Source: Spirosoma linguale DSM 74
GTDB lineage: Bacteria; Bacteroidota; Bacteroidia; Cytophagales; Spirosomataceae
DNA length: 64,000 bases
Assembly (NCBI GenBank): GCA_000024525.1
Contig: CP001769.1
Location: 5,551,001 to 5,615,000, forward strand
Direction of reading: 5' to 3'
Shown piece by piece: positions 9,873 to 50,485 of the stretch. The translations under genes and the position numbers were made by a program. Positions within the stretch are counted from its first letter, which is position 1; every line of letters begins with the position of its first letter. The notes under the pieces are model-generated. The model was not told the origin of the DNA. It worked only from the letters and a program-made list of their open reading frames with translations, and did no database searches.

Positions 9873-9900
9873 CGGACAAGATTCGTCCGAAAGCGGACAC
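9873..9900 (+). promoter_or_regulatory. Upstream activator site of the adaptor operon
   Basis: A dyad GTCCG-AAAG-CGGACAC (9885-9900) with a further CGGAC half at 9873-9877. The same GTCCG-N4-CGGACAC layout occurs at 50401-50416 before another permease operon. In both places it lies 54-55 bp upstream of a GG-N10-GGCA element. It is read here as the binding site of the NtrC-type regulator; the match is seen directly, the binding is inferred. Confidence 0.6.
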
Positions 9901-9954
9901 CGAGCATACTGAATCCTGCTTTAAACTACTGAAAATCAGCCTCACGAATCGGTT

Positions 9955-9970
9955 GGCATGACTATTGGCA
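9955..9970 (+). promoter_or_regulatory. Sigma-54-like promoter of the adaptor operon
   Basis: GG-CATGACTATT-GGCA has the -24 GG and 10-bp spacing of sigma-54 promoters. The -12 box reads TTGG, where the consensus is TTGC. The second GG starts an overlapping near-match, GGCACAACACTTAC. It lies about 100 bp before the adaptor start. Confidence 0.45.
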
Positions 9971-10067
9971 CAACACTTACTAGCGAATAAGCTTCGAGTC
10001 TGGACCTGCTGTTACCACACTAGCAGACCACTCTTTCACTCTTTCACTCTTTCGCTAAATAATTGTA

Positions 10068-11315
10068 ATGGATCGCGTACTACCTAAACGATTTTGGACA
10101 ACTCAGCGCCTGGCTCTTTTTGGGGGCGGGACACTGGTAATTGGCTTACTGGCTTACACCCTTTTCTTCGCCGACCGTCGGTCGAAGCTGAATGTGGAAA
10201 AAGACAAAATAACGGTCTCAACCGTCTCAACAGGGCCTTTTGAAGATTTTATCGCCGTAACGGGCGTAGTTCAACCGCTGAAAACCATCCGGCTCGATGC
10301 CATTGAAGGTGGGTATGTCACCCAGAAACTGGTTGAAGGCGGCAGCACGGTAAAACAGGGCGATGTACTCCTGAAACTGGAAAACCAAAGCCTGAAACTG
10401 AGCTTCCTGCAATCCGAAACCGAAGCCAACCGACTGGTCAACGACTTACAAAATACTCGCCAACGATTACAAGTTGAGCGGTTTACGCTCCGAAAAACGC
10501 TGGCCGATCTGGATGCGCAAATCGATCAGGCCAAAGACTCCTACGACCGGCAAGCCAAATTGTATAAAGACAAAGTCGTTTCGGAAGAGGATTACCTGAA
10601 AGCCAAACGGGCCTACGAACGGCTGGCTGGCCAGCGGACCATTGAGATCGAAACGCAGAAGTACCAGGAAGATAACGCCAAGTTCCAGATCAAACAATTG
10701 GAAGGCACCTTGCAACGTACGCAGAAAAATGTGGCTCTTTGGCAGCAGACGCTGGATAATCTAGTGGTGAAAGCGCCCGTTTCGGGGCAGTTGTCCAGCA
10801 TCGATGTAGAAGTTGGCTCGAATATCAACCGGGGGCAGAACATCGGACAGATTGATGACCTGAATGGTTTCAAAATGCGCGTAGGGGTCGATGAGCATTA
10901 CATCAGCCGGGTATTCGCTGGTCTGAAAGGCTCATTTGAGTTCAACGGAAAAATGCATGAACTTACCATTAACCGGGTGTATCCGGAAGTAAAAAGCGGC
11001 CGTTTTGAGGTCGACATGATTTTCCCGAAAGGGGCACCCGAAGGCATCAAGCGCGGTCAGTCGTCGCCCATACAGCTGGAGTTGGGCAAAGCGGCTAAAG
11101 CAACGCTCATTCCCGTCGGCGGCTTCTTCTCCGATACGGGCGGCAACTGGGTGTATGTGGTTGACAAGTCGGGCAAGCGGGCGGTAAAACGCCAGATTAC
11201 GCTGGGCCGCAAAAACCCTGAGTTCTACGAAGTGCTGGACGGCCTCCAGCCCGGCGAACAGGTGATAACCAGCAGTTACGAGAATTTTGGTGATAACGAA
11301 GTATTAGAGTTTTAA
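10068..11315 (+). CDS. Periplasmic adaptor (membrane fusion) protein, HlyD/MacA family
   Basis: Bridges an inner-membrane ABC permease to an outer-membrane channel. A single N-terminal membrane anchor (about residues 17-34) is followed by the first half of a lipoyl domain (VTGVVQPLKTIRLDAIEGGYV...). A long helical hairpin follows (about 105-225, rich in Gln/Lys/Leu heptads), then the second lipoyl half (LVVKAPVSGQLSSIDVEVGS), a beta-barrel and a membrane-proximal domain. The 415 residues fit the family. It is the only adaptor in the window and opens the array, with the ATPase 129 bp downstream. It carries a proposed NtrC/sigma-54 control region upstream. No TolC-like channel gene is in view. 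Confidence 0.9.
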   Translation: MDRVLPKRFWTTQRLALFGGGTLVIGLLAYTLFFADRRSKLNVEKDKITVSTVSTGPFEDFIAVTGVVQPLKTIRLDAIEGGYVTQKLVEGGSTVKQGDVLLKLENQSLKLSFLQSETEANRLVNDLQNTRQRLQVERFTLRKTLADLDAQIDQAKDSYDRQAKLYKDKVVSEEDYLKAKRAYERLAGQRTIEIETQKYQEDNAKFQIKQLEGTLQRTQKNVALWQQTLDNLVVKAPVSGQLSSIDVEVGSNINRGQNIGQIDDLNGFKMRVGVDEHYISRVFAGLKGSFEFNGKMHELTINRVYPEVKSGRFEVDMIFPKGAPEGIKRGQSSPIQLELGKAAKATLIPVGGFFSDTGGNWVYVVDKSGKRAVKRQITLGRKNPEFYEVLDGLQPGEQVITSSYENFGDNEVLEF

Positions 11316-11319
11316 ATAT

Positions 11320-11430
11320 CTGAACCGGGATTTTAATGAGATTAAAAGGATTAACAGGATTGATCGCAAAGGACTGGTTGCATCAGATAATCTTGAAAAT
11401 CCTTTCAATCTTGTTAAAATCCCGGTTCAG
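11320..11430. repeat. Palindromic spacer between adaptor and ATPase genes
   Basis: Perfect 17-bp inverted repeat ends (11320-11336, CTGAACCGGGATTTTAA, and 11414-11430). Further imperfect pairing occurs inside, for example AGGATT against AATCCT. The whole spacer can fold into one long stem in the mRNA. No U-tract follows, so it is more likely a processing or stability element or an intergenic repeat than a terminator. Confidence 0.75.
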
Positions 11431-11444
11431 GCAACCTTTTCACT

Positions 11445-12122
11445 ATGATCCAGACAATTAACCTTCAAAAACTCTTTTCGACCGAAGAAGTCGAAACCAC
11501 CGCCCTCAACGGCATCAACATGGATGTGAAAGACGGCGAGTTCGTTGCCATCATGGGGCCATCGGGCTGCGGCAAATCCACGCTGCTTAACATCCTGGGT
11601 CTACTGGATAACCCCAGCGAAGGCGAGTACAATTTCTACGGCACGGAGGTCGCCAAAATGACCGAACGTCAGCGGGCGCAACTCCGCAAAGGCTCCATCG
11701 GCTTCGTGTTCCAGAGCTTTAACCTGATCGACGAACTGACCGTATATGAGAACGTCGAGCTGCCCTTGCTGTACCTGAAAACGCCCCCCGACGAGCGGAA
11801 GAAGCGCGTAGAAGAGGCCTTGGAACGGATGAGCATCATGCACCGGCGCAATCACTTCCCGCAGCAGCTTTCGGGTGGTCAGCAGCAGCGGACGGCCATC
11901 GCACGGGCGGTTGTTGCCAAACCCAAGCTGATCCTGGCCGATGAACCGACGGGTAACCTCGACTCGAAGAATGGCGAAGAAGTAATGAAACTATTGGGCG
12001 AACTGAACGACGAAGGCACCACGATTATCATGGTAACCCACTCACCCTACGACGCCGGTTTCGCGCATCGCATTGTGAACTTGTTTGATGGTAAGGTGGT
12101 CACGGAAAATTTCCACGTGTAG
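11445..12122 (+). CDS. ABC transporter ATP-binding protein, MacB/LolD type
   Basis: Powers FtsX-family permeases in lipoprotein release or efflux. All ATPase motifs are intact: Walker [10 protein letters not shown] (about residues 36-44), Q-loop VFQSFNLID, signature LSGGQQQR, Walker [10 protein letters not shown] and the H-loop MVTHSP. The 225-residue length and the motif spacing match MacB/LolD ATPases. It follows the adaptor and precedes 13 permeases that lack their own ATPase, so it is the obvious shared motor (inference). Its stop codon is 11 bp from the stop of the convergent Uma2-family gene. Confidence 0.95.
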
Positions 12123-12133
12123 AGATGTCGGGC

Positions 12134-12580
12134 TTACACAAATGTGTTTAGGTCCACCTGCAACACCTCCGAGAAAGATGAATTGGTAGCCACTCCGCCA
12201 TCGCCGAGCCGGTAGCGGAGCCACTGCTGGGTTTTGTAATTAAAGACAAAGCCTTCGAGGATACCGTATGCATTGTCCTCGATTAGCTTGACAATCTTGC
12301 TCGTGTCGTGTTTCAGTCCGCTATTCTGGCAAACCTCGATAATGACCTTTGCTTCTTCCGTCTGATGATCATACAGTAAAACATCGGGTACAGGACTGCT
12401 GTATCCTTCCGTTAGCATCGTTTCTGGAAGCGGCTCAAATGGTATCTTCTTCGACTGATAGAGCGGGTAAAGCCCGGCCGTCAGTCGGGCAATGACACTC
12501 TGATGAATGATCGGGGCGTTGACGCCTATATCGTCTTCCTGAACGAGTGTCTTTAAAGAGATTGGGTGTGAGTAGTTCAT
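12134..12580 (-). CDS. Uma2-family endonuclease-like protein, copy 1
   Basis: A 148-residue protein of the Uma2 (DUF820) family with a PD-(D/E)XK nuclease-like fold. The motif PLPETM is followed by the acidic PVPDVLLYD and the strand VIIEVCQ, then Lys residues in SGLKHDTSKIVKL, the usual Asp/Glu/Lys arrangement. It ends VDLNTF, as the three other copies do in related form. The biological role of Uma2 proteins is not established; nuclease activity is inferred from fold. It is divergent from the permease at 12625, with 44 bp between the starts. The same layout recurs at 15099 and 43207. Confidence 0.75.
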   Translation of the reverse strand: MNYSHPISLKTLVQEDDIGVNAPIIHQSVIARLTAGLYPLYQSKKIPFEPLPETMLTEGYSSPVPDVLLYDHQTEEAKVIIEVCQNSGLKHDTSKIVKLIEDNAYGILEGFVFNYKTQQWLRYRLGDGGVATNSSFSEVLQVDLNTFV

Positions 12581-12604
12581 CTGTAAGTTGTCTGATTAGC
12601 AGGT

Positions 12605-12619
12605 CAAATCTAACCAAAA
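12605..12619 (+). promoter_or_regulatory. Conserved leader motif before permease 1
   Basis: CAAATCTAACCAAAA ends 5 bp before the start codon at 12625. Near-identical 15-mers sit at the same distance before the permeases at 15581 and 43687, each preceded by a divergent Uma2 gene. It may act in translation initiation or as an operator for both genes. Confidence 0.5.
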
Positions 12620-12624
12620 CCACC

Positions 12625-15012
12625 ATGTTCCGCAACTACCTCAAAATCGCGTTTCGGAGTTTGATGAAGAACAAACTCTTCTCTTCCATCAACGTGCTGG
12701 GTCTGGCGCTGGGCATGGCGTGCAGCCTGCTTATTGGCCTTTGGGTAAGGGACGAACTAAGCTACGACCGCTTTCTGCCCAATGCAGAGAGCATTCATTA
12801 TGTGCGGGTTAATTTTCCCTACAACGGCGAAACGGTGACGAACTATATCACACCCGGCCCCTTACAGGAAGCCATCGCCAAAGACGTACCGGAAGTAGCG
12901 GCTGCGACCAAAATCAACTTCAACAACGAGGTGCTCGTGAAAGTGGGCGAAACAGTCGCCAAGGAAAAAGGGCACTACGCTACCGCCGACTTTTTCGGGG
13001 TCTTCGACCTGCCTGCCGTGTATGGAAATCCGAAAGCTGCGCTGGCGCAACCCAACCAGATCGTTATCACCCGAAAAGTAGCGGAGAAGTTTTTTCCTAA
13101 TGGCTTAGCCCTCGGCAAAACACTGCAACTCGACAATAACAAATTCTACGTGGTCGGAGCAGTACTGGAAAACCTGCCGACCAACTCGACCCTGCAATTC
13201 GACTGGCTGGTGAACTGGAAAGCCTATGAGCAGGACTGGATGAAAACATGGGGTAACAACTCGTTTCAAACGTTTGTCCGGCTGAAACCCCGAACTACGC
13301 TGGCCCAGGCGGAGAAAGCAATGGCCGACATTTACCCCCGCTTTGCCGGTAAAAATTTCGAAACGGGCCGTCCCATCCTACAACCCATCACCGACCTGCA
13401 TCTGTATTCAGACTACAAAAACGGCGTATCGGTGGGCGGCCGCATCGAATACGTACGGATTTTCTCTATTGTGGCGCTGTTCATGCTGCTCATTGCGTGC
13501 ATTAACTTTATGAACCTCGCCACGGCCCAGTCGGCCATGCGGGCGAAGGAAGTGGGCGTTCGGAAAGTGGTTGGCGCGTTGCGGTCGTCGCTGATCGGTC
13601 AGTTTCTAAGCGAGTCGATGATCACAAGCGGGATGGCTGTTGTGCTGGCCCTGGCGCTGGTCTGGTATGTGCTGCCCACCTTCAACGCAACCTTTGAAAA
13701 ACAACTCACCCTCGACCTCACCCAACCGACGCTGTGGCTCACACTGCTGGTTTTAGTGCTGATTACCGGCTTTCTGTCGGGTAGTTATCCGGCGCTGTTT
13801 CTGTCGTCCTTACAACCGATAAAGATTCTGAAAGGGAACGGTCTGGGGCTTCGGGTACAGCTCAGCAAAGGACGAACCGTTCTAAGCCCGGCCCTGTTTC
13901 GGCGGGCACTGGTTGTGTTTCAGTTTTCGCTGTCGATTTTTCTGATTGTTGGTATGCTGGCTATTGGTCGGCAGATGAATTATCTGCGAACCAAGAACCT
14001 GGGCCTCGACCGCGAAAATGTCGTTTACATTCCGCTGGAAGGCGAAATAGCGCAGCCTAAAAAGGTAGAAGCGTTCCGACAGGAAGTCATGCGCCAGCCA
14101 GCCATTGCATCGGCCACCACGGCCATGTCGCTCCCCGTAAATGTGCAAAGCACCTCCGGCGATCTGAAATGGCCCGGCAAAGACCCCAATCTGCAAACCA
14201 ACGTGTCGTGTATGTTTGTGGGTGGCGATTTCACCAAAACCATGAACATTAAGCTGGTCGACGGGCGTGACTTCCGCACCGACAGCCCCGCCGATTCGAC
14301 CAATTACCTCATCAACGAAGCCGCGGCCCGGCTCATGTCGATGAAAGACCCGGTTGGTAAAGACGTGCAGTTCTGGCCGGGTAAAGGCAAGATCATTGGC
14401 CTGATGAAAGATTTTCACCTCAACTCACTCCATCAGGAAATTACGCCCTTAATTCTTTGCTTTGACAGCCGCAACACGAGTTACTTGCTCGTGAAAACCC
14501 GCGCTGGTCAGGCCCCGGCCGCCATCGCCGATCTCGAAAAACTATCGAAGCAATTCAACCCGAATTACCCGTTTACGTATCATTTTCTGGATGAAGAGTT
14601 CGAGAGCCTGTATCGGTCTGAGCAGCAGGTAAACACGCTGGTCAATTATTTCGGCTTTCTGGCGATTCTGATTTCCTGCCTGGGGCTGTTTGCGCTGGCG
14701 GCTTTCACAGCCGAGCAGCGTACCAAAGAAATTGGCGTTCGGAAAGTGCTGGGCGCGTCGGTAGTGAACATCGTCGGCCTGCTTTCCAAAGACTTTCTGA
14801 CGCTGGTATTGATTGCGCTGGTACTGTCTACGCCACTGGCGTGGTGGGCCCTGAGCAAATGGCTCGAAACCTTTGCCTATCGGGAAAACCTGACCTGGTG
14901 GATTTTTGGTGTGGCGGGCCTGCTGGCCGTTGTTATTGCGTTTCTAACGGTAAGTTACCAAAGCATCAAAGCTGCGCTGATGAACCCGGTAACGAGTTTA
15001 CGGTCTGAATGA
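12625..15012 (+). CDS. FtsX/MacB-family ABC permease 1
   Basis: A 795-residue permease containing two MacB-type halves. The first half has membrane helix 1 (about 20-42), a periplasmic domain and three helices (about 285-430). The second half has a fifth helix (about 440), a second periplasmic domain and three C-terminal helices. The cytoplasmic coupling loops that meet the ATPase are RAKEVGVRKVVGA and QRTKEIGVRKVLGAS. The product ends NPVTSLRSE, the tail common to the array. I start at 12625, where MFRNYLKIAFRSL matches the sister genes; an upstream in-frame ATG at 12547 would overlap the divergent Uma2 gene. First permease after the ATPase. Confidence 0.93.
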   Translation: MFRNYLKIAFRSLMKNKLFSSINVLGLALGMACSLLIGLWVRDELSYDRFLPNAESIHYVRVNFPYNGETVTNYITPGPLQEAIAKDVPEVAAATKINFNNEVLVKVGETVAKEKGHYATADFFGVFDLPAVYGNPKAALAQPNQIVITRKVAEKFFPNGLALGKTLQLDNNKFYVVGAVLENLPTNSTLQFDWLVNWKAYEQDWMKTWGNNSFQTFVRLKPRTTLAQAEKAMADIYPRFAGKNFETGRPILQPITDLHLYSDYKNGVSVGGRIEYVRIFSIVALFMLLIACINFMNLATAQSAMRAKEVGVRKVVGALRSSLIGQFLSESMITSGMAVVLALALVWYVLPTFNATFEKQLTLDLTQPTLWLTLLVLVLITGFLSGSYPALFLSSLQPIKILKGNGLGLRVQLSKGRTVLSPALFRRALVVFQFSLSIFLIVGMLAIGRQMNYLRTKNLGLDRENVVYIPLEGEIAQPKKVEAFRQEVMRQPAIASATTAMSLPVNVQSTSGDLKWPGKDPNLQTNVSCMFVGGDFTKTMNIKLVDGRDFRTDSPADSTNYLINEAAARLMSMKDPVGKDVQFWPGKGKIIGLMKDFHLNSLHQEITPLILCFDSRNTSYLLVKTRAGQAPAAIADLEKLSKQFNPNYPFTYHFLDEEFESLYRSEQQVNTLVNYFGFLAILISCLGLFALAAFTAEQRTKEIGVRKVLGASVVNIVGLLSKDFLTLVLIALVLSTPLAWWALSKWLETFAYRENLTWWIFGVAGLLAVVIAFLTVSYQSIKAALMNPVTSLRSE

Positions 15013-15021
15013 TGCACCTAT

Positions 15022-15095
15022 GTACCCACGGGATTTATCCCGTGTTTTTATCATGTATGTATAGCCATAAAACACGGGATAAATCCCGTGGGTAC
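15022..15095. repeat. 27-bp inverted repeat after permease 1
   Basis: Arms 15022-15048 and 15069-15095 are perfect inverted copies. Each arm is itself nearly palindromic (CACGGGATTTATCCCGTG). It begins 9 bp after the permease stop and ends 3 bp before the convergent Uma2 stop, so it may terminate transcription in both directions. A variant lies after permease 6 (42633-42714). Confidence 0.8.
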
Positions 15096-15098
15096 GAA

Positions 15099-15542
15099 TT
15101 ACAAAAAAGTATTTAAATCGAGGTTCAATATCTCGGAGAATGATGATTCGGTGGTCAGGCCGCCGTCGCCAAACCGGTAGCGGAGCCATTGCTGGGTTTT
15201 GTAATTGTAGACGAAGCCTTCACGAATGCCGTAAATGCCATCATCTATGAGTTGAATCACTTTTCTGAGGTCACCTTTCAGACCGGCGGTCTTACATACT
15301 TCAATAATGATCGGCGTTTCGCTGGATTCATTATCGACCAGTGACAGATCTGGAACAAGGCTGGCTTTGGCATCGTCGAGCATCGTTTCGGGCAGGGGCT
15401 CAAGATGAATAGCCTTTGTGTGATAGAATAAAACACCTAAACCCGTGGTGAGCTTAGCGATAATCCGCTGATGATCGGCGGGAGCCCAGACGCCTAAATC
15501 TTCGCCAACAGCGAAAGGGTCACTTCCAGAAGGAAAGTACAT
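15099..15542 (-). CDS. Uma2-family endonuclease-like protein, copy 2
   Basis: A 147-residue Uma2-family protein. Key elements are PLPETMLDDAKASLVPDLSL, the strand PIIIEVCKT and GLKGDLRKVIQLID, followed by a C-terminal RYRFGDGGL segment. It starts MYFPSG, like copy 4 (MYFPAA), which supports the ATG at 15542; an ATG at 15578 is possible but runs into the leader of permease 2. The two starts are 38 bp apart on opposite strands. Of the four copies it looks most like copy 4 (43207-43650), judged by eye. Confidence 0.75.
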   Translation of the reverse strand: MYFPSGSDPFAVGEDLGVWAPADHQRIIAKLTTGLGVLFYHTKAIHLEPLPETMLDDAKASLVPDLSLVDNESSETPIIIEVCKTAGLKGDLRKVIQLIDDGIYGIREGFVYNYKTQQWLRYRFGDGGLTTESSFSEILNLDLNTFL

Positions 15543-15560
15543 AACAGACAGCGTTTTAGA

Positions 15561-15575
15561 CAAACTTAACGAAAA
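15561..15575 (+). promoter_or_regulatory. Conserved leader motif before permease 2
   Basis: CAAACTTAACGAAAA, ending 5 bp before the start at 15581. It differs by a few bases from the motifs at 12605 and 43667. Confidence 0.5.
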
Positions 15576-15580
15576 CATTC

Positions 15581-17998
15581 ATGTTCCGCAATTACCTGAA
15601 AGTCGCCCTGCGAACGCTCTGGAAACACCGCACGCACACACTCATCAACATCGTTGGGCTGTCGGTGGCGTTCGGTACCTGCGTGCTGTTGTTCCTGACG
15701 GCTACCTTCGAACTCTCCTACGACAGCTTTCATACCGATGCCGACCGCATCTTCCGGCTGAACTTTCTGTCGACCAACCGCGATGGAACGACGGATAGAG
15801 GCAGCACCATGCCGTATCCCATCTCCCCCGCCCTCAAAGCCGAATTTCCGGAGATTGAAGGGGTTACGCGTTGGTTCGACCGGAGCGCGAGTATCCGGCG
15901 CAATAGCCAGACCTACACCAAGGATGTCCGCATGGCCGATGCGGATTTTCTTCATATGTTCTCCTTCCCGCTCCAGAAAGGCAACCCCAAAACGGCCATG
16001 AACGGTCTGAGCGACATTGTCATCAGCGAACGTATGGCGAACGATATTTTTGGGAAGGAAGACCCCGTGGGCAAGCCCCTCCAGCTCCGTATGAACGGCG
16101 CCTGGCAGGCATTTACCGTGACGGGCGTAATAAGCAATCCTCCAAAAAACTCAACCTTCGATTTTGATGCACTCATCCGCAGCGACAACGCGGGCGATTA
16201 TCAGGAGTTCAAAAGCCGCTGGGACCACGGCAACCATGATGTATATGTACAGGTAAAAGCCGGTACCGACGCGCAAACCCTGCAACGCCGGACGCAGGCT
16301 TTCATGGACAAATACTTCGCGAAGGATATTAAAGAGCGGCAGGAACAGGGGTATCCAAAAAATGAACTGGGTTACCAGCGCAGCCTTCTTCTGGAGCCCT
16401 TGCGCGATGTCCATTTTGACACCGTCACCACACATGGTGCTGGTATCAGTCGGGCGTACGTGTATACATTGCTGCTCATCGGCCTGTTCATTCTCGCCAT
16501 TGCCTGTATCAACTTCATTAACCTCACCATTGCGCAATCGCTCTCGCGGGCTCGGGAAGTGGGCGTTCGTAAATCGCTGGGGGCTCAACGGGCACAGCTG
16601 TTTGGCCAGATCTGGGGTGAAACCCTGTTGCTGTGCTTCGGCGCATTAGTCATTGGCCTGGGGTTGGCGTATGCTGTGCTACCCACCTTCAATCGCCTGT
16701 TCCGAAGCTATCTGACACTGGACAACTTCCTGACACCAACCGTATTGCTGGTAACGGCATTGTGCTTTCTGCTCATCACGCTCATAGCGGGCGGCTATCC
16801 ATCCTGGTTTGTGACGCGCTTCAATGCTGTGGAGGTCCTGAAAGGCCGGGTGAAGGTGAGCAAACCGGGCGTACTTCGCAATTCACTCATCATCACTCAG
16901 TTTACCATAGCCTGTCTGCTTATCGTCTGCACCATAATAGTCCGGCAGCAGATCACCTATTTGCAGCAGCGACCGATGGGCATGGACAAAGAACAGGTTA
17001 TCAGCGTACCGGTGGGTGGCGAACTCAACGGCACCGTCGCCCTGAAAGCTATGCGCGACCGGCTGGCCAACCAACCCAACATCACCGCCGTATCGGGTTC
17101 GGGCGTGAACATCGGCGCGGGACTGGACGGTAGCTCATCCCGAATGATGTTCGGTTTCCAATACGGCAAACGGGACGTTACCTGCGACTGGCTCCGCATC
17201 GACACGGATTACCTGAAAACAATGGGTATCAAACTCCTGAAGGGCCGCGATTTCAGCCCGGACTTCAGTACGGATTCCAGCTCGGCGGTGCTGATTACCC
17301 AGAGTATGGCGAAGGCACTAGGCGAAGCAAATCCTATAGGAAAATTCATTAAGCCCGATAATAAATCGTACCAGATTGTGGGTGTCGTTTCCGATTTCAA
17401 CCTGTACTCCCTGCATCAGGAAGCCAAACCGATTACCTTGCAAATGGAGTCGAGCGCACCCATTCAGTACATTCTTGTCCGGGTAAATCCGCAGAATCTA
17501 ACGGGCGCAATGGAAACCATCAAGACTGCCTGGAAGACCATCGCGCCCAAACAGGAGTTCATCGGCTCGTTTCTGGATGAAAACACCGAACGCTGGTATC
17601 GGAAAGAACAGCGGTTATCGACCATCTTTTCGACCGCTGCGGGCATTGCCATTTTGCTCTCGTGCATGGGTTTGTTCTCCATCGCTCTGCTCACCATCGA
17701 ACAGCGCACCAAAGAGATTGGCGTTCGGAAAGTGCTGGGTGCCAGCGTAGCCAGTATTGTGGCCCTGCTCTCAAAAGACTTTCTAAAACTGGTTGTAGCG
17801 GCCATCGTCATTGCCTCACCTCTGGCATGGTGGGCCATGGACAACTGGCTTCAGGATTTCGCCTATAAAATTGATATTGCCTGGTGGGTCTTTGCGGTAG
17901 CGGGTTTGCTGGCGGTTGTGATTGCGCTGGCAACCGTAAGCTTCCAGAGTATCAAAGCCGCCTTGATGAACCCAGTGCAATCGTTACGGTCCGAATGA
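15581..17998 (+). CDS. FtsX/MacB-family ABC permease 2
   Basis: An 805-residue double-half permease. The N-terminus MFRNYLKVALRTLWKHRTHT leads into helix 1, whose flank reads VAFGTCVLLFL where most array members have GLA-CLL. The first coupling loop is RAREVGVRKSLGAQRAQLFGQIWGE and the second is QRTKEIGVRKVLGAS. The third membrane block ends with AWWAMDNWLQDFAYKID and NPVQSLRSE. It belongs with permeases 7, 10 and 13 by its early region (LSYDSFHTDADRIFRL). Transcribed away from Uma2 copy 2. The downstream spacer to permease 3 is 97 bp and carries a repeat. Confidence 0.92.
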   Translation: MFRNYLKVALRTLWKHRTHTLINIVGLSVAFGTCVLLFLTATFELSYDSFHTDADRIFRLNFLSTNRDGTTDRGSTMPYPISPALKAEFPEIEGVTRWFDRSASIRRNSQTYTKDVRMADADFLHMFSFPLQKGNPKTAMNGLSDIVISERMANDIFGKEDPVGKPLQLRMNGAWQAFTVTGVISNPPKNSTFDFDALIRSDNAGDYQEFKSRWDHGNHDVYVQVKAGTDAQTLQRRTQAFMDKYFAKDIKERQEQGYPKNELGYQRSLLLEPLRDVHFDTVTTHGAGISRAYVYTLLLIGLFILAIACINFINLTIAQSLSRAREVGVRKSLGAQRAQLFGQIWGETLLLCFGALVIGLGLAYAVLPTFNRLFRSYLTLDNFLTPTVLLVTALCFLLITLIAGGYPSWFVTRFNAVEVLKGRVKVSKPGVLRNSLIITQFTIACLLIVCTIIVRQQITYLQQRPMGMDKEQVISVPVGGELNGTVALKAMRDRLANQPNITAVSGSGVNIGAGLDGSSSRMMFGFQYGKRDVTCDWLRIDTDYLKTMGIKLLKGRDFSPDFSTDSSSAVLITQSMAKALGEANPIGKFIKPDNKSYQIVGVVSDFNLYSLHQEAKPITLQMESSAPIQYILVRVNPQNLTGAMETIKTAWKTIAPKQEFIGSFLDENTERWYRKEQRLSTIFSTAAGIAILLSCMGLFSIALLTIEQRTKEIGVRKVLGASVASIVALLSKDFLKLVVAAIVIASPLAWWAMDNWLQDFAYKIDIAWWVFAVAGLLAVVIALATVSFQSIKAALMNPVQSLRSE

Positions 17999-18004
17999 AA
18001 GTAA

Positions 18005-18081
18005 AAGGAGTTAGGAGCGAGAAGGGAGGAGCCATCCGGCGGAAAACCTGCTTCAGCAACTCCTACCTCCTACCTCCTAAT
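18005..18081. repeat. AGGAGTTAGGAG-type inverted repeat after permease 2
   Basis: Purine-rich left arm with AGGAGTTAGGAG units (from about 18006) and pyrimidine-rich right arm with CTCCTACCTCC units (to about 18080) enclose CCATCCGGCGG. Related spacers follow permeases 10, 11 and 12. Confidence 0.65.
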
Positions 18082-18095: not shown

Positions 18096-20537
18096 ATGCT
18101 AACCAACTACATCAAAATCGCCTGGCGGAACCTGCGGAAACAGCAGGGATTCGCATTTATCAACATTTTCGGGCTGGCTATTGGCCTGGCATGTTGCATG
18201 CTCATTATGCTGTATGTGCTGGACGAACTGAGCTTCGACCGCTACAACGCCAATGCCGACCGTATCTATCGCATACAGTCCGACATCAAGTTTGGGGGGA
18301 ATGATATGCACTTCGCCACAACACCCGACCCACTGGGACCTACCCTTAAGAAAGACTATCCACAGGTAGAGCAATTTGTCCGGCTGCACCAGCGTGGTAC
18401 CTGGCTGGTGAAGAAAACCGGCGAAACGACCAACCTTCGGGAAGGTGACGTCGTGTTTGCGGATTCTACGGTATTCGATGTTTTCACGCTGCCCTTTGTT
18501 GCGGGCGATGCCAAACGGGCACTGACGCAGCCGAACACAGTTGTCATCAGCAAATCGGCCGCGAAACGGCACTTTGGCAACCAGAACGCCCTAGGGCAAA
18601 CGCTGGTCTTTGCAAACACAGAAAATTACAGAGTAACGGGAATCATGCGCGACATGCCCCGGAACGCCCATTTTCGCACTGACTTCTTCGTGACGATGCT
18701 CAGCGATAAGTACCCCTGGGGACAATGGCTTAGTAATAACCATCACACGTATATACGGCTGAAGGCAGGACGGTCCGGCGCTCCGGCTGATCCGGCTGTA
18801 TTTTCTCAGAATTTCGGGGCCGTTATCGAGAAATACGTGGGGCCGCAATTGCTGCAAATGGTGGGCACCACAATGGAGCAGTTCCGGAAATCCAACAACC
18901 AGATGAACTTTTGGCTCATTCCCCTCACCGATATTCATCTACGTTCCAAACAACAAATCGAACTGGCCCCCAACGGCGACATTCAATACGTTTATATCTT
19001 CTCGGCCGTAGCACTGTTCATTCTCATTATAGCCTGTATCAACTTCATGAATCTGGCCACTGCCCGCTCATCGAACCGGGCTAAAGAGGTTGGCGTCCGG
19101 AAAGTGATGGGATCGGAACGGCAACAACTCGTGGGTCAGTTCATGACCGAATCGATACTGACGACCGTGCTGGCTATGGCGCTGGCCATTGGTATTGTGG
19201 CCGTTGCCCTGCCGGGATTTAATAGCATTGCGGCCAAAGAAATCAGTCTGTTGCAATTGGTATCGCCATCGTTGTTGCCAATAATTATCATCCTGCCGAT
19301 TGTGGTAGGCTTGCTGGCTGGCAGTTACCCGGCCTTTTTTCTGTCTTCCTTTCAACCCATTTCGGTATTGAAAGGCCGCATAAACATGAGTTTCCGGACG
19401 GTCAGTCTACGAAGCGGACTGGTGGTGTTCCAGTTCATGATGTCGGTCGTACTCATCATCGGGACAATCATTGTCTATCGACAGCTTACGTACATCCAAA
19501 CGACCAGCGTGGGTTTCAACCGCGATCACGTTCTAACGGTCAATGATCTGTATGCGGTGGGCAAACAGGCCGAAACGTTCAAGCAGGAGGTACTGCGCTT
19601 ACCGGGCGTGGTAAGCGGCAGCCTGTCCGGTTACCTGCCCACCCCCTCAGACCGGAACGACAACGTGTTTTTCCCCGAAGGGCAGACAAACATGAACAAA
19701 GGGGTCAGCATGCAGAACTGGGGCGTCGATTACGACTATGTGAAAACACTAGGTATTCAACTGGTAGCGGGGCGTAATTTCTCACAGCAGTTCGGTTCCG
19801 ACTCCTCAGGGATACTGCTCAACGAAGTCGCTGTCAAAATTCTGGGATTCAAAGACCCCATTGGCAAACGCATCTGGGGATTCAATGATGCCGAGGGGAA
19901 AACCCGAAAAACATACACCGTCGTCGGGGTTGTTAAAAATTTCCATTACGAATCGCTCCGGCGCAACATTGGTGCGTTGGCACTGGTGCTGAGTGCCAAC
20001 GCAGGGGCGGCTTCCTTCCGGGTAATCAGCACGAACCTACCGGTATTGATGCAGCAGATTGAAGCGAAATGGAAAGCACTGGCACCCGGCCAGCCGTTCA
20101 GTTTCAAATTCATGGATGATAGCTTCGACGAGATGTACCGCGCCGAACAGCGCATTGGCACCATTGCCCTAACGTTTGCGGGATTGGCTATCCTGATCGC
20201 GTGTCTGGGTCTGTTCGGACTGGCCGCGTTCATCGCGGAACAGCGTACCAAAGAGATCGGCGTCCGCAAAGTACTGGGCGCGAGTGTCCCCAGCCTCATC
20301 GGTCTGCTCTCCAGGGACTTTCTGAAACTGGTTCTGATTGCTATTGTCATAGCCTCGCCCATTGCCTGGTATGCCATGAATAACTGGCTAAAAGACTTCG
20401 CTTATAAAATCGACATTGAGTGGTGGATGTTTGCCCTGGCGGGTCTGCTGGCCGTAGGCATTGCTCTGTTGACGGTCAGTTTCCAGAGTGTAAAAGCTGC
20501 GTTGATGAACCCAGTGAAGAGTTTACGGAGTGAGTAA
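18096..20537 (+). CDS. FtsX/MacB-family ABC permease 3
   Basis: An 813-residue, two-half permease. It starts MLTNYIKIAWRNLRKQQGFA, like permease 9. Coupling loops: RAKEVGVRKVMGSERQQLVGQF and QRTKEIGVRKVLGASVPSL. The first periplasmic region carries LSFDRYNANADRIYRIQ, and the domain before helix 2 ends with the conserved LTDIHLRSKQ. The C-terminal block AWYAMNNWLKDFAYKIDIEWWMF is close to permeases 4, 5 and 10. It is 66 bp before permease 4, so the two are probably co-transcribed. Confidence 0.92.
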   Translation: MLTNYIKIAWRNLRKQQGFAFINIFGLAIGLACCMLIMLYVLDELSFDRYNANADRIYRIQSDIKFGGNDMHFATTPDPLGPTLKKDYPQVEQFVRLHQRGTWLVKKTGETTNLREGDVVFADSTVFDVFTLPFVAGDAKRALTQPNTVVISKSAAKRHFGNQNALGQTLVFANTENYRVTGIMRDMPRNAHFRTDFFVTMLSDKYPWGQWLSNNHHTYIRLKAGRSGAPADPAVFSQNFGAVIEKYVGPQLLQMVGTTMEQFRKSNNQMNFWLIPLTDIHLRSKQQIELAPNGDIQYVYIFSAVALFILIIACINFMNLATARSSNRAKEVGVRKVMGSERQQLVGQFMTESILTTVLAMALAIGIVAVALPGFNSIAAKEISLLQLVSPSLLPIIIILPIVVGLLAGSYPAFFLSSFQPISVLKGRINMSFRTVSLRSGLVVFQFMMSVVLIIGTIIVYRQLTYIQTTSVGFNRDHVLTVNDLYAVGKQAETFKQEVLRLPGVVSGSLSGYLPTPSDRNDNVFFPEGQTNMNKGVSMQNWGVDYDYVKTLGIQLVAGRNFSQQFGSDSSGILLNEVAVKILGFKDPIGKRIWGFNDAEGKTRKTYTVVGVVKNFHYESLRRNIGALALVLSANAGAASFRVISTNLPVLMQQIEAKWKALAPGQPFSFKFMDDSFDEMYRAEQRIGTIALTFAGLAILIACLGLFGLAAFIAEQRTKEIGVRKVLGASVPSLIGLLSRDFLKLVLIAIVIASPIAWYAMNNWLKDFAYKIDIEWWMFALAGLLAVGIALLTVSFQSVKAALMNPVKSLRSE

Positions 20538-20596: not shown

Positions 20597-20603
20597 CACT
20601 ACA

Positions 20604-23006
20604 ATGATCCAGAATTATCTCCGAATTGCCGTTCGAAACTTGTGGAGAAACAAGGTTTTCTCCGGCATCAACATCGTTGGGCTAGCTGTAGGGCTGGCTT
20701 CGTGCCTGCTGCTGTTCATGTACATCACGCATGAGCTGAGTTACGACGATTTTCAGCAGAAAGCCGACCGGATCGTGCGCGTCACGATGGAGTACAGCAT
20801 GGAAGGCCGAGTCGCTAAAATCCCACAAACGGGTACCAAAGTCGTAAAGGAGTTTGGGCGGCAGTTTCCCGAAATAGAATCGGGGGTGCGGCTTATTAAC
20901 CGGGATGGGGTTGTCAATACCGGCGACCGTCAGTTTAGCGAAAAACGGATCGTCTTCGCCGATTCAGCTTTCTTTACGCTGTTTTCGTTCCCACTCCTGA
21001 AAGGCAATTCGCAAACGGCACTGGCGGCCCCAAACCAGGTTGTGCTCTCGGAAAGCACGGCCCGGAAATACTTCAGCGACGAAAATCCGGTGGGCAAAAC
21101 GATTCGCATCAACACGGGCGGGTCGTTTCGGGATTATGCCGTTACGGGCGTCGTGAAAGACAGCCCGGCCAATTCGCAGATCAAATACGACCTGCTGACG
21201 TCGTTCCTAACGCTGCCCGCAGCGAAAAGCGAAGAGTGGTTTTCGTCCAATTACGCCACCTATTTGCTGCTCCGTAAACCGGACGGCATGGCCCCACTAC
21301 AGGCCAAAATTCCGGGCTTCATGAAGACGCAGTTCGGGAAAGAGGAAATGTCGGCGGGAAGCTACCTGACGTATAATCTCGAACCGCTGCGTCGGGTGCA
21401 TTTGCATTCCGACGTAGAGGGCAGTTTCGAACCCAACGGCGACCTGACCTACATCTATATTTTCGGGTCGATTGCCCTGCTGATTCTGCTGATCGCCTGC
21501 GTCAACTACGTCAATCTGGCTACATCGCGGGCGGTGGAACGTGCGCAGGAAGTGGGGGTACGAAAGGTGATGGGCGCCCTGCGCGGGCAACTGTTCGGGC
21601 AGTTCATTGGCGAATCGGTGATCGTGACGTCCATTGCCCTGGTGTTGGCATTGCTGCTGGCGGCACTGGCGTTACCGGTATTCAACGACCTGTCGGACCG
21701 GCAGTTTTCGGTTAGCAGCTGGTTCGAACCGGGCAACCTGCTGCTGCTGGCGGGTATCGGGTTGGTCGTTAGCCTGATTGCGGGTAGTTATCCAGCCCTG
21801 GTACTGGCGCGATTTGAACCCGTACGCGTCCTGAAAGGGCATCTGAAAACCGCCGGAGCGGGTCAGTTTCGCCGGGCGTTGATTGTCTTTCAGTTTGCCA
21901 TTACCGCCTTTCTCATTATCAGCACCCTGCTGGTTCGCAACCAGTTGGCCTTTGTACAGCAAAAGAAATTAGGCTACAGCAAAGACCATGTACTGATGCT
22001 TCCCGTCGATAAGCAGGTCAACGAGAAGATAGCGGCCATAAAAAGCGAATTCCGGCAAAATGCAGACGTTCAGCATGTGTCGCTGGCGTCGGAGTCGCCT
22101 GTATTCGTGGAAGGCGGGTATGGGATGCGCAGTGCCAGGATGGCGGCCGATCAGCGGAAGATGGTAGCCGGAGTGACCATCGACGAAGATTATGTGCCAA
22201 CGATGAGTCTGCAACTGATTGCGGGCAGTAACCTGAATGCCGCCGATATGGAGCGTATCTCGCGCACGGATAACGACAGCCTCACCCGAAGTCGGTTTAT
22301 TCTCAACGAAGCCGCCGTAAAAGAACTGGGCTGGACACCCCAGCAAGCCATTGGTCAGTGGCTGGATATGAATGGGCGTCTGGGCGAAATAAAAGGCGTG
22401 GTAGCCGATTTTCACTTCGCGTCGATGAAGCAGAAGATTGGCCCGCTGGTTCTTTTCCCACAGAATGGCGGTGAAATCCTGCTGGTCAAACTTTCGGGCA
22501 GTCAGTTGCCCAACACGCTCCGGTTCCTGGAAAGCAAATGGCGGACACTCATCCCCGACCGACCCTTTTCCTACGAATTCATGGACGAGGAGTTCAACAA
22601 ACTGTATGCCGCCGAAACCCGAACCGGGCTCATTTTCAGCATTTTTGCATTTCTGTCTATCTTTCTGGCCTGTCTGGGTCTGTTCGGACTATCGGCCTAT
22701 ACAACGGCGCAGCGCACCAAAGAGATTGGCGTCCGGAAAGTGCTCGGCGCATCGGTGTTCAGCATTGTCGGCCTACTCTCGAAAGACTTTTTGAAGCTCG
22801 TTCTGGTGGCCCTAGTCATAGCCTCTCCCCTAGCCTGGTATGCCATGAACCAGTGGCTCAACGACTTCGCCTACAAGATCGACATCGAATGGTGGGTATT
22901 CGCGCTGGCGGGTATTTTGGCCGTAGGTATTGCGTTACTGACGGTCAGTTTCCAAAGCGTGAAAGCCGCGTTGATGAACCCGGTGAAGAGTTTACGGAGC
23001 GAGTAG
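20604..23006 (+). CDS. FtsX/MacB-family ABC permease 4
   Basis: An 800-residue permease beginning MIQNYLRIAVRNLWRNKVFSG. First coupling loop RAQEVGVRKVMGALRGQLFGQFIGES; second QRTKEIGVRKVLGASVFSIVGLLSKDF. The first periplasmic domain has LSYDDFQQKADRIVRV, where most sisters have the R of DR. The second domain is short of the usual LVDGRDF form and reads LIAGSNLNAAD. It ends NPVKSLRSE. It is the last gene of the first permease block; a decayed permease tail and an insertion sequence follow. Confidence 0.92.
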   Translation: MIQNYLRIAVRNLWRNKVFSGINIVGLAVGLASCLLLFMYITHELSYDDFQQKADRIVRVTMEYSMEGRVAKIPQTGTKVVKEFGRQFPEIESGVRLINRDGVVNTGDRQFSEKRIVFADSAFFTLFSFPLLKGNSQTALAAPNQVVLSESTARKYFSDENPVGKTIRINTGGSFRDYAVTGVVKDSPANSQIKYDLLTSFLTLPAAKSEEWFSSNYATYLLLRKPDGMAPLQAKIPGFMKTQFGKEEMSAGSYLTYNLEPLRRVHLHSDVEGSFEPNGDLTYIYIFGSIALLILLIACVNYVNLATSRAVERAQEVGVRKVMGALRGQLFGQFIGESVIVTSIALVLALLLAALALPVFNDLSDRQFSVSSWFEPGNLLLLAGIGLVVSLIAGSYPALVLARFEPVRVLKGHLKTAGAGQFRRALIVFQFAITAFLIISTLLVRNQLAFVQQKKLGYSKDHVLMLPVDKQVNEKIAAIKSEFRQNADVQHVSLASESPVFVEGGYGMRSARMAADQRKMVAGVTIDEDYVPTMSLQLIAGSNLNAADMERISRTDNDSLTRSRFILNEAAVKELGWTPQQAIGQWLDMNGRLGEIKGVVADFHFASMKQKIGPLVLFPQNGGEILLVKLSGSQLPNTLRFLESKWRTLIPDRPFSYEFMDEEFNKLYAAETRTGLIFSIFAFLSIFLACLGLFGLSAYTTAQRTKEIGVRKVLGASVFSIVGLLSKDFLKLVLVALVIASPLAWYAMNQWLNDFAYKIDIEWWVFALAGILAVGIALLTVSFQSVKAALMNPVKSLRSE

Positions 23007-23559: not shown

Positions 23560-23635
23560 AGAACGTGTTGGGAAATGCTACAATCTAAAATGAATGAGCA
23601 TCTGTCTATCTTCAAGTCGCCAAACTTTGATAGAT

Positions 23636-24160
23636 ATGCAGACCAGTTACCAAGCCCTGACAGATGCTCAGTGGCAAGTTATGATGCCTTTTTTTGACTT
23701 ACAACGAAAACGAACAGTTGCCTTGCGCCAAGTCGTTGATGCTTTGTTTTATATACTGCGAACGGGCTGTCAATGGCGTAACTTACCCGCTAATTATCCT
23801 CATTGGCAAGCTGTATACTATTACTTTGACAGATGGAAAACGAATGGTTTGTTCGAGCAGATTAATCGAGCCTTGAATCAAATAGACCGTGGACAAGAAG
23901 GCCGAGCCCCTTATCCATCTATCCTTAACACTGATAGTCAAAGCGTTAAGTTGACGCCTATGATTTATGAACATCGGGGTTGGGATGGACACAAGAATGT
24001 CAACGGGCGTAAGCGTCAGTTGGTAGTTGACAGTGGTGGGCGACTTTGGGTGGCTAAAGTGCATGCGGCTAACCAGGCGGATGGCGTCTCTTCTATAAGT
24101 TTGGTGGCTGATATTGCTTACTTAAATGATCGCCTGACAAAAATCTTTGGTGATCAAGCC
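23636..24160 (+). pseudogene. IS5-family transposase, N-terminal part (continues at 25618-25885)
   Basis: The N-terminal part has the family opening LTDAQWQVMMPFF, then RTGCQWRNLP, the first catalytic Asp in NTDSQSVK (about residue 102) and LWVAKVHAANQADG. It is cut after IFGDQA. The rest resumes at 25618 as [20 protein letters not shown], then [24 protein letters not shown], which carries the catalytic Glu. A one-base shift near 25795 follows, after which another frame gives [17 protein letters not shown] up to a stop at 25883-25885. Joining the halves restores GDQAYNGVF, typical of the family, which locates the inner insertion precisely. Confidence 0.85.
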
Positions 24161-24216
24161 GCTGGTACTGTCGTGAAAAACAAATTTTGAGGTAGGATTT
24201 TTTTAATATCTTTGAC

Positions 24217-42634: not shown

Positions 42635-42714
42635 TGTACCCACGGGCTTTATCCCGTATGTATTGACATAAAACACGGGATAAAGCCGAACGCAGCCCCG
42701 GCCGTGGGTACATC
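42633..42714. repeat. Inverted repeat after permease 6
   Basis: GATGTACCCACGG (42633-42645) pairs with CCGTGGGTACATC (42702-42714), and GGCTTTATCCCGT (42645-42657) with ACGGGATAAAGCC (42675-42687). It is a variant of the repeat after permease 1, with 14 extra bases in one arm. It begins within the permease stop codon and touches the stop of the convergent Uma2 gene. Confidence 0.7.
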
Positions 42715-43172: not shown

Positions 43173-43206
43173 AGTTAATTATGGTAAAGGTTACAACCTG
43201 GTGTGC

Positions 43207-43650: not shown

Positions 43651-43666
43651 AAACTGTTGTTTTTAA

Positions 43667-43681
43667 CAAATCTAACGAAAA
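43667..43681 (+). promoter_or_regulatory. Conserved leader motif before permease 7
   Basis: CAAATCTAACGAAAA, ending 5 bp before the ATG at 43687. One base differs from the motif at 12605. Confidence 0.5.
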
Positions 43682-43686
43682 AAGTG

Positions 43687-46083: not shown

Positions 46084-46094
46084 GAACGCGGGGT

Positions 46095-46122
46095 GTAGAG
46101 ACAAGGCATGCGTTGTCTCTAC
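46095..46122. terminator. 28-bp palindrome between convergent genes
   Basis: GTAGAGACAAGGCA pairs with TGCGTTGTCTCTAC, one mismatch. It starts 11 bp after the permease 7 stop and ends 9 bp before the stop of the minus-strand DUF5916 gene. It belongs to the same palindrome class as 28337, 52941 and 55489. Confidence 0.65.
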
Positions 46123-46131
46123 CTTACAAAA

Positions 46132-48339: not shown

Positions 48340-48475
48340 TCACAGAAGTTTAAGACTACAAAAGTCTGTAAAATGCTTAATTGTACAGTTAAGATCAATA
48401 AATTAGTGTTGTCGATAAGTTGATCTCAAAACGCCCTATATGATGAGAAAGCAGTTTTATTGATTAAGTACAAAA

Positions 48476-49129
48476 CTAGGTTAAACTCTCCAGCCGCGTT
48501 ACACACTCATTAAAGTGCGGACATTCTTGCCGGAGAACAGGGAGGGTTATATCTTTCAGAATCAGAATGCCGTCCGTTATTTTATTATAACTCGAACAAA
48601 GTGATAAAATTCGCTTCGATGGAGCGGTAAGCGGACTGTCATTAATCTCTTCCGGCGTTTGGTAAGCCTTTCTTATCGCAGTTAAACTACCTGTAGGCAG
48701 GTCAGGATGGTCGAGTTGAAGCCAGTTTTCGGTATGTGCAGGATCAGCAAAAAGCAATGCTTCAAACTCGTGCAGCTGCAAATAGGGGATGAACCGATAA
48801 TGACCAATACGATCCTCAAATGCCTGTTCGAGCCGAAGCACCCGGTCATACGAACGAAATAACCGAGTTTCATTAAAGGCTGGGAACTGACTGTCTAAGC
48901 CATACAGATCAATAAGTGTCGTATGCCAGGCCGTAGGATCTTCGCTTAGCCACTGCCGTATGTCAAACTCAGCTTTCCCAAAGTTGGTGTAACCACCTCG
49001 TTGGGTTTTACTAGTGCGTAGTCGGCGTACATCGGCGTAGATACCCAATGGGAGTAAATGAGGACGTAGTATCTGATTAACAAACTGCTCTTCAGCATGG
49101 CCCTCGGCCGTTATATTAAGTCGAATCAT
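48476..49129 (-). CDS. DUF4276-family (Toprim-like) protein
   Basis: 217 residues. It begins with the Toprim-like Glu motif NITAEGHAEEQFVNQILRPHL. An acidic strand WHTTLIDLYGL follows, then FIPYLQLHEFEALLFADP, the family hallmark. The ATG at 49129 overlaps the TGA of the upstream ATPase gene (ATGA), so the two are translationally coupled. An in-frame start at 49159 is less likely. DUF4276 proteins usually accompany an AAA ATPase; by analogy with OLD and PARIS-type pairs, the ATPase may sense phage and the Toprim-like partner may cut nucleic acid. That role is inferred. Confidence 0.82.
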   Translation of the reverse strand: MIRLNITAEGHAEEQFVNQILRPHLLPLGIYADVRRLRTSKTQRGGYTNFGKAEFDIRQWLSEDPTAWHTTLIDLYGLDSQFPAFNETRLFRSYDRVLRLEQAFEDRIGHYRFIPYLQLHEFEALLFADPAHTENWLQLDHPDLPTGSLTAIRKAYQTPEEINDSPLTAPSKRILSLCSSYNKITDGILILKDITLPVLRQECPHFNECVTRLESLT

Positions 49130-50262
49130 GGGGTGCCGCCAATTACGTTTTTCTCCCACAGATCACCTAAACTGTACTCGGTAAGCCAGGTGGCTAGTAC
49201 ATCCGTCTCCAGTCGTCGGAAGGTAGAGTGGCCAGGGCGGCCGTCCGCATCTTCACGATCAACAACAATTACATCGTCGGGCGCGAAGGCATTGACCAGA
49301 TTGACGCTTTGTGTGGACACAATGACCTGCGTACGAGACGAGGCTTTTTTCAGCAAACCCGCTAACAGAGCTAATGCTGTCGGGTGCAAACCCAGTTCAG
49401 GTTCATCCAGAAGTATAAGGTTGGGTAGTTTTGGCTGTAGGAGTAAAGTTACCAGACAGATGAACCTCAGTGAGCCATCAGAAAGGTCACTGGCGTTAAA
49501 GCGCATATCGGATCGGTTATCCTGCCATTCCAGCAAAATTTTCTGCTCATTGTATGGGTTGGGCCGAAAGATGAAATCACCAAAAAAAGGCAATACCAAT
49601 TTTATTGTACTGACAATTCGTTCGTAGTGTTTCGGTGATTTCTGCTGCATATACCACAGGAAAGCCGCCAGATTACCCGCATCGGCCCGCAAGAAAGCAG
49701 TGTCGCTTATATCACTCAATTTCTTGACAGGAGCTTCGGCACTAGTATCGTGAAAATGATAGACACGCCAATTCTTTAGTTGAGCACTAATCACCTGACT
49801 GACTTTGAATGAGTTCTTTGTTAAAAGTGACTCTTCTTTTCCCTTCGAAAAACGAACTCCCTCTGTCGTAATAGGCCCTGTAATGACATTAGTTTCTTCA
49901 AACTCAATTATAAGCCTATCGTCCTGAGCTATTATTAAGGATAATTCGTACCAACTGTCATTAAAGGTTAAGATGATTTTTATTTGCTTCGTCTCCCGGC
50001 TCCCATAATGAAGCAACTTATCTGCCCCGCCTTTTACGGCTGTGTAAACTTGTAGGCGCTGGTTGATAATTTCATGCAGAAAGCGAAACAACTCTATAAA
50101 ATTTGACTTACCTGCACCATTCTGCCCAATCAAAATATTCAGATCCTGAATTGGCAAGTCAACGCTCTGGATTGACCGGAAGCCGCTAACGTGAATTGAT
50201 TGTAATGTGTGTTGCCCATCCATACCCAAAACTACACTTATTTTCTTTTTCCATTTGATCAT
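49126..50262 (-). CDS. AAA-family ATPase (RecF/OLD-like, AAA_21)
   Basis: 378 residues. N-terminal VSGFRSIQSVDLPIQDLNILIGQNGAGKSN contains Walker A (about residues 45-52). The ABC-like signature is LSDGSLRFICLVTLL. Walker B is LILLDEPELGLHP, followed by VIVSTQSVNLVNAF. The end, VIVVDREDADG, is typical of ATPases that work with a nuclease partner. The first gene of a two-gene unit with the DUF4276 protein. The start at 50262 has a good ribosome site (GGAGG, 3 bp before ATG), unusual in this genome; an ATG at 50223 is the alternative. More AT-rich than the permeases. Confidence 0.88.
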   Translation of the reverse strand: MIKWKKKISVVLGMDGQHTLQSIHVSGFRSIQSVDLPIQDLNILIGQNGAGKSNFIELFRFLHEIINQRLQVYTAVKGGADKLLHYGSRETKQIKIILTFNDSWYELSLIIAQDDRLIIEFEETNVITGPITTEGVRFSKGKEESLLTKNSFKVSQVISAQLKNWRVYHFHDTSAEAPVKKLSDISDTAFLRADAGNLAAFLWYMQQKSPKHYERIVSTIKLVLPFFGDFIFRPNPYNEQKILLEWQDNRSDMRFNASDLSDGSLRFICLVTLLLQPKLPNLILLDEPELGLHPTALALLAGLLKKASSRTQVIVSTQSVNLVNAFAPDDVIVVDREDADGRPGHSTFRRLETDVLATWLTEYSLGDLWEKNVIGGTP

Positions 50263-50378
50263 AAACCTCCTTCTTGCTTAGCGCTCTCGATCAGAGAGTA
50301 AGCAAGCGGAGTCATCCAGAATCATAGTTAATCAACCAAATCATAAAAATCCTGCGGGGCCGCCCGTGCGGTTCTGAC

Positions 50379-50416
50379 TGTCCGCAACTGTACGCCCTCC
50401 GTCCGTTTGCGGACAC
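50379..50416 (+). promoter_or_regulatory. Upstream activator site of the permease 8 operon
   Basis: GTCCG-TTTG-CGGACAC (50401-50416) repeats the layout of 9885-9900. An extra TGTCCGCAA at 50379-50387 forms a 9-bp inverted pair with TTGCGGACA (50407-50415). Confidence 0.6.
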
Positions 50417-50469
50417 TTTCCCCTAGACCGCTATCACCATCTGATTAATAACCAGTCACTTAACAAACT

Positions 50470-50485
50470 GGTACGGCATTTGGCA
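50470..50485 (+). promoter_or_regulatory. Sigma-54-like promoter of the permease 8 operon
   Basis: GG-TACGGCATTT-GGCA, starting 54 bp after the activator dyad and about 37 bp before the ATG at 50522. It has the same form, including the unusual TTGG at -12, as the element at 9955. Confidence 0.45.

Follow-up and report, generated by a model that had tools for sequence, protein, structure and literature searches.

The closest described systems are those of the response regulators NtrC, ZraR and AtoC, which combine a receiver domain, a sigma-54 AAA+ domain and a Fis-type helix-turn-helix and use tandem dyads upstream of a promoter of the -24/-12 type. Here we describe a system of like plan in Spirosoma linguale DSM 74, found in a 64,000-nucleotide stretch of the 8.49 Mb genome (the window, C1:5551001-5615000; coordinates are those of the window unless prefixed with C1 or written with seven digits). 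Two modules in the window, each made up of dyads and a sigma-54-like promoter, precede operons of FtsX-type permeases. Judged from sequence, these modules and their counterparts before other scattered permease units are very probably the enhancers and promoters of a sigma-54 regulon governed by the response regulator encoded at 6446-7816. The system departs from NtrC, ZraR and AtoC in having a GAFTDA loop, a -12 box that is mostly TTGG, TTGA or TTGT, two discrete spacer lengths, and dispersed targets that are duplicated permeases.

That sigma-54 is linked to FtsX-like permeases is already in print, as a 2025 paper claimed the first such evidence, having found sigma-54 promoters statistically enriched before COG0577 permeases in Bacteroidia (PMC12316311). 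For the COG0577 genes, the excerpted text of that paper names neither an activator nor a site for one, and gives no tandem dyad or spacing rule; it also states that activator specificity is not available for every organism studied. The sigma-54 regulon of Flavobacterium psychrophilum has typical -24/-12 elements, with transcription start site mapping and promoter changes, but differs in content: the functions named in the excerpted text are gliding, envelope stress, the quality control of proteins and exported proteins, and activators are unassigned there (PMC9723704). Among transporters, the permease studied here resembles ADOP and DarB, the adaptor DarC and the ATPase DarD. All scored under the NCBIfam equivalog cut-offs for DarBCD (DarC 202 of 450, DarD 277.8 of 375 and DarB 147 of 700 bits) and under that of the ADOP model TIGR03434 (282.7 of 622.3 bits across nearly the full length). 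Likewise, the regulator did not reach the threshold of any of the 25 NCBIfam models listed among its 60 matches. Two Dyadobacter genomes carry 28 and 33 ADOP genes of unknown function, the regulation of which is not described in the passage concerned (PMC11573002). Within open-licence papers we found no description of the regulator, the tandem dyads, the two spacer classes or the regulon, although the hyphenated search term may miss other spellings.

Modules of the S. linguale genome and their anatomy

The elements of the two modules, together with the proposed regulatory proteins, are as follows.

9873-9878, plus strand: right half-site only of the module 1 distal dyad, 21 bp ahead of the proximal right half and common to other modules of this genome
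9885-9899, plus strand: predicted proximal activator dyad of module 1, GTCCGAAAGCGGACA (GTCCG at 9885-9889, CGGACAC at 9894-9900)
9953-9970, plus strand: sigma-54-like promoter of module 1, TTGGCATGACTATTGGCA (GG-N10-GGCA at 9955-9970)
50380-50393, plus strand: imperfect distal dyad of module 2, GTCCGCAACTGTAC, 21 bp ahead of the proximal dyad
50401-50415, plus strand: predicted proximal activator dyad of module 2, GTCCGTTTGCGGACA (GTCCG at 50401-50405, CGGACAC at 50410-50416)
50468-50485, plus strand: sigma-54-like promoter of module 2, CTGGTACGGCATTTGGCA (GG-N10-GGCA at 50470-50485)
6446-7816, minus strand: NtrC-type response regulator, the proposed activator (Pfam Response_reg, Sigma54_activat and HTH_8, all above cut-off)
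2694-4061, minus strand: histidine kinase, probable partner of the regulator (HATPase_c)

The initial annotation had reported both proximal dyads and both GG-N10-GGCA boxes, and the letters and coordinates were correct on re-reading. Its gaps of 55 and 54 bp proved to be position differences, CGGACAC being separated from the box by 54 and 53 bases, and it had overlooked the second dyad or half-dyad that lies 21 bp upstream of each proximal dyad.

The dyad alone was rejected as evidence. With its trailing A it gave 8 match rows genome-wide (6 distinct places) and the reversed pattern also gave 8, so that the weight rests only on clustering, promoter pairing and the tandem half-site. Four of the six distinct places fall within 86 kb (5560885-5646608), in the permease array, and each is ahead of plus-strand genes. 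When dyad and promoter were combined (GTCC-N6-GGAC, 45-75 bp, TGGNA-N6-TTG), 14 matches were found in the genome and none with the reversed control. A weight matrix built from those 14 matches and scanned over 404 kb, mainly surrounding permease genes, gave 21 sites (control, 0). As the 14 seeds are included in this result, the scan contributes 7 new sites. The 22 modules of this genome discussed below are the 21 matrix sites plus the one at 5638036, which has a promoter one base off register and was added by eye. Over 200 genomes of the family the combined pattern gave 874 matches against 67 for the control.

The proximal dyad has the consensus TGTCCG-N4-CGGACA and is accompanied by a second dyad or half-dyad upstream. 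All 22 modules have a half-site (at most one mismatch) 20-22 bp upstream, where nine control offsets gave 0-2 of 22; the 14 combined-pattern modules were chosen without the upstream stretch, whereas the 7 matrix sites are not independent of the upstream half-site. Both halves of the distal dyad combined have three or fewer mismatches in 14 of the 22. The promoter reads TGGYAY-N5-TTG, with the -24 box and the N10 spacing of sigma-54 promoters. Among 21 modules the base after TTG is T in 7, A in 6, G in 5 and C in 3 (one of the last reads TTAGC), a distribution that bears out the earlier suggestion that TTGG rather than TTGC may be a lineage variant.

Spacer lengths were read from 150 listed matches out of the 874, chance matches included, the search window being 45-75 bp. 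Of these matches, 86 have a spacer of 52-56 bp and 50 have one of 62-67 bp; none fell at 57-61 bp and 14 fell elsewhere. Thus 137 of the 150 lie within 51-57 or 62-67 bp, where a uniform spread would predict 42%. The 14 combined-pattern modules of S. linguale also form two classes (9 and 5), and named loci with at most four mismatches (n=29) have spacers of 53-56 bp in 16 cases and 64-66 bp in 13. The two classes are about one helical turn apart, as expected if a protein contacts the polymerase over a short DNA loop, and tandem dyads set at a distance and phased to one face of the helix have the form of enhancer-type sites, which we predict these to be.

Several PadR-linked modules and that at 5619894 were seen by eye to carry a hairpin and a T-run between enhancer and promoter (L061, L063, L070, L071). 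This hairpin is probably the terminator of the preceding gene, as if packed into the loop. Also by eye, a near-perfect inverted repeat, about 48 bp long, is centred on the dyad of the 5646608 module. Two further long inverted repeats flank this module, one of which falls between its promoter and the start codon.

Genes behind the modules

The genes that follow the two modules of the window are listed here.

10068-11315, plus strand: periplasmic adaptor of the HlyD type, opening the module 1 operon (Pfam HlyD_3)
11445-12122, plus strand: ABC ATPase of the MacB/LolD/DarD type (Pfam ABC_tran)
12547-15012, plus strand: duplicated FtsX/MacB_PCD permease following adaptor and ATPase (Pfam)
15581-17998, plus strand: duplicated FtsX permease, tandem (MacB_PCD match)
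18096-20537, plus strand: duplicated FtsX permease, tandem (MacB_PCD match)
20604-23006, plus strand: duplicated FtsX permease, tandem (MacB_PCD match)
50522-52927, plus strand: duplicated FtsX permease that opens the module 2 unit (domain match)
52959-55475, 55549-57972, 58110-60488 and 60655-63081, plus strand: four more tandem duplicated FtsX permeases behind module 2

A sixth permease of the module 2 unit starts at 63237 and extends beyond the window end. A glycosyltransferase-like gene (7843-9780) lies between the regulator and module 1. A match to an IS4/5-type transposase (DUF4096, 23594-24190) was noted within the array, ahead of a permease at 25972 that has no module directly upstream.

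Duplicated FtsX permeases follow 17 of the 22 modules, in 11 cases with a PadR gene first. One module precedes the HlyD-ATPase-FtsX operon of the window and another an ATPase operon at 1461596. In the genome scan proposed in the initial annotation, the paired motif is not scattered at random but stands mainly before FtsX permease units. All 49 duplicated-type permeases lie inside the 404 kb, 17 having a module directly upstream, and no module was found at the eight single-type MacB permeases (two in the matrix scan and six covered by the genome-wide combined pattern only). In two genomes of other genera (G008 and G029), a follow-up that took in all 27 modules counted there found 26 preceding FtsX, PadR-FtsX, HlyD or ATPase genes. 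One PadR-linked permease (L010:3182-5845), the sole such permease scanned, exceeded the cut-off of the permease prefix domain 2 model NF038404 (64.4 bits, cut-off 35).

Because PadR is the first gene behind 11 of the 22 modules, the dyads might be read as operators for a repressor such as PadR, the TGGCA and TTGG boxes being incidental. We consider this very unlikely: the dyads also precede units lacking PadR, the adaptor operon included, and they stand 50-70 bp ahead of the box, at either of two phased distances, which is a better fit to a distant activator than to a blocking repressor. The large tandem arrays, in which several modules precede paralogues, could also suggest that the modules are passengers of segmental permease duplication that have no present regulatory function. 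That explanation has the least to recommend it and we regard it as highly improbable, given that dyads, spacing and boxes are kept despite diverged spacer and flanking sequence and that the module also precedes non-permease operons and persists across genera.

Other genes follow the modules at 5638036, 2621382 and 1354825. The first of these modules, situated inside a permease array (L011:4163-12466), precedes an operon encoding a 190-residue protein, an extracytoplasmic function sigma factor, a zf-HC2/HEAT protein, three PF00144 (beta-lactamase/esterase family) proteins and open reading frames having no Pfam assignment; the second precedes a 252-residue protein. The third, on the minus strand, has no gene downstream and faces a terminator. 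A sigma-54-dependent small RNA was rejected as the simplest reading of this site, the homologous promoter driving a protein of about 124-140 residues in seven relative loci (L278, L279, L281-L285). No gene of that size lies downstream of the promoter in S. linguale (L275), G039 (L276) or G173 (L277); since the same promoter serves a protein in the seven relative loci, the gene seems to have been lost in S. linguale.

Occurrence of the module with the regulator

The regulator at 6446-7816 has the receiver, sigma-54 AAA+ and Fis-type helix-turn-helix domains of an NtrC-type protein, and its matches in named Spirosoma loci reach 96%. A kinase matching that at 2694-4061 (38-69% identity) lies within the 14-kb regulator locus in 20 of 24 relatives. 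The genome has a single PF04552 gene (RpoN), in which the RpoN box reads ARRTVAKYR.

Over the 200 family genomes the module count followed the best regulator match (Spearman 0.78, kinship uncorrected). The 116 genomes in which the regulator match was strong (E no higher than about 1e-175) contained 852 pattern matches (control, 58) and the remaining 84 contained 22 (control, 9). Eight of those 22 are in one genome, G089, which was considered as a counter-example given its weak match; this was resolved when the regulator was found to be split between both ends of its contig (87 and 85% identity). Within one genus (g27), modules are absent from the three genomes whose best regulator match, at 40-41% identity, is not a good one, and all eight genomes with a good match have at least one.

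Next to the regulator, in the divergent intergenic region, 10 of 24 relative loci have an exact dyad within 700 bp, and others have variant dyads. As relatives use TGTCCG/CGAACA-type variants, the exact pattern is too strict beyond the close relatives, and thus we used a looser two-dyad test with controls, searching 900 bp in 80 named loci, the best of at least 556. In 40 of these 80 loci tandem dyads and a promoter were found divergent beside the regulator, against 0 of 80 for the reversed control and 1 of 800 block shuffles. The 40 positive loci include Larkinella, Dyadobacter, Chitinophaga, Persicitalea and Siphonobacter.

The genome encodes 11 strong Sigma54_activat proteins, one of them a paralogue having a recognition helix similar to that of the regulator, and hence the modules could be sigma-54 enhancers at which the dyad is bound by some other activator or activators. 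We judge this unlikely, as the modules track the regulator at 6446-7816 even within the single genus, stand divergent beside it in several genera, and have a dyad different from that paired with the closest paralogue. This paralogue (45% identical; recognition helix TRFALYRR versus SRQALYRR) is located near an HlyD gene, an ATPase and single-type permeases. Its system has the dyad TGTGCG-AATT-CGCACA, at the same distance, before the TTTGG promoter of that HlyD gene (L354, near 1500; C1:2833511, minus strand). A changed helix that goes with a different dyad, TGTGCG-N4-CGCACA, argues for dyad specificity, although this is a single case. The scan, the co-occurrence, the divergent modules in relatives and the presence of RpoN together favor the earlier proposal that the regulator at 6446-7816 controls both operons of the window, and we retain that regulator as the predicted activator.

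Proposed mechanism and biological meaning

Several observations weigh against a sigma-54 regulon of this regulator. Its AAA+ loop is GAFTDA rather than the GAFTGA that PMC12316311, in its excerpted text, terms invariant in sigma-54 activators, and the -12 box is seldom TTGC. The expected target is absent behind three of the 22 modules (1354825, 2621382 and 5638036), and of the 49 duplicated permeases 32 lack a module immediately before them; 20 of those 32 come behind another permease of a tandem and 12 begin a run (one behind the adaptor/ATPase operon). The co-occurrence comes from related genomes and has no phylogeny correction. Several relatives that have a 62-67% identical regulator (G011, G013, G017 and part of g32) gave no exact-pattern match; those inspected (G011, G017 and G104) have tandem dyads with a CGAACA or TGAACA half-site, which the exact pattern cannot see. 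The looser test was devised after such variants had been seen, and it was negative in 40 of the 80 named loci. Nine of these negatives are close relatives (six Spirosoma, one Spirosomataceae metagenome-assembled genome, Fibrisoma and Fibrella), and in the close relatives inspected (L155-L157) another gene is divergent to the regulator, beyond which the 900-bp search cannot reach.

The unusual loop and the unusual -12 box may belong together. Loop sequences in 134 loci having the regulator or its relatives were GAFTDA only in 99, GSFTDA in 2, GAFTGA in 1 and GSFTGA in 1, with no pattern match in 31. Of the 10 activator loops read in S. linguale two are GAFTDA, and both of these activators go with TTTGG-type promoters. 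The loop influences the -12 region, a property known from work on the loop phenylalanine. GAFTDA-loop regulators may be matched to a non-canonical -12 element (TTGG, TTGA or TTGT), a lead given by two activators. Genome-wide, TGGCAC-N5-TTGC gave 14 matches against 13 for the control and the TTGR version 44 against 30; these being mostly chance matches, they are evidence only that TTGC is not favored. Some sites outside coding frames read TTGC.

In the mechanism that we propose, the regulator would be phosphorylated by the kinase at 2694-4061, presumably before binding, and would bind the two tandem dyads, TGTCCG-N4-CGGACA and the weaker copy about 21 bp (two helical turns) upstream. The bound regulator would then contact RNA polymerase-sigma-54 at TGGYAY-N5-TTG(G/A/T) across a spacer of either allowed length and the promoter would open. 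Since the adaptor/ATPase operon and many dispersed permease units are preceded by one and the same code, a single signal would switch all of them on together. Some two dozen switch-plus-promoter units thereby probably allow a single regulator to activate many scattered genes for membrane transporters at once.

A further and more tentative proposal is that dozens of interchangeable duplicated permeases share the one adaptor/ATPase pair (10068-12122), the whole set being switched by the single regulator via copied enhancer code. At E of 1e-30 or below the genome has 9 ATPases related to that of the window, versus 49 duplicated permeases, and these numbers together with the shared enhancer code make one ATPase for many permeases plausible, although we think it doubtful.

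The shared enhancer code ties many duplicated FtsX permeases to one adaptor/ATPase operon and one two-component system. Through a single regulator the large duplicated-FtsX arrays of S. linguale and its relatives become functionally testable, and in those relatives membership of the regulon can be read from the sequence. The sharp two-class spacing provides a natural data set on phasing along the helix in sigma-54 activation. A natural pair for the study of activator specificity is provided by the paralogous system, whose half-site differs by one base. If the shared adaptor/ATPase reading is true, it would identify which ATPase powers the 'orphan' permeases.

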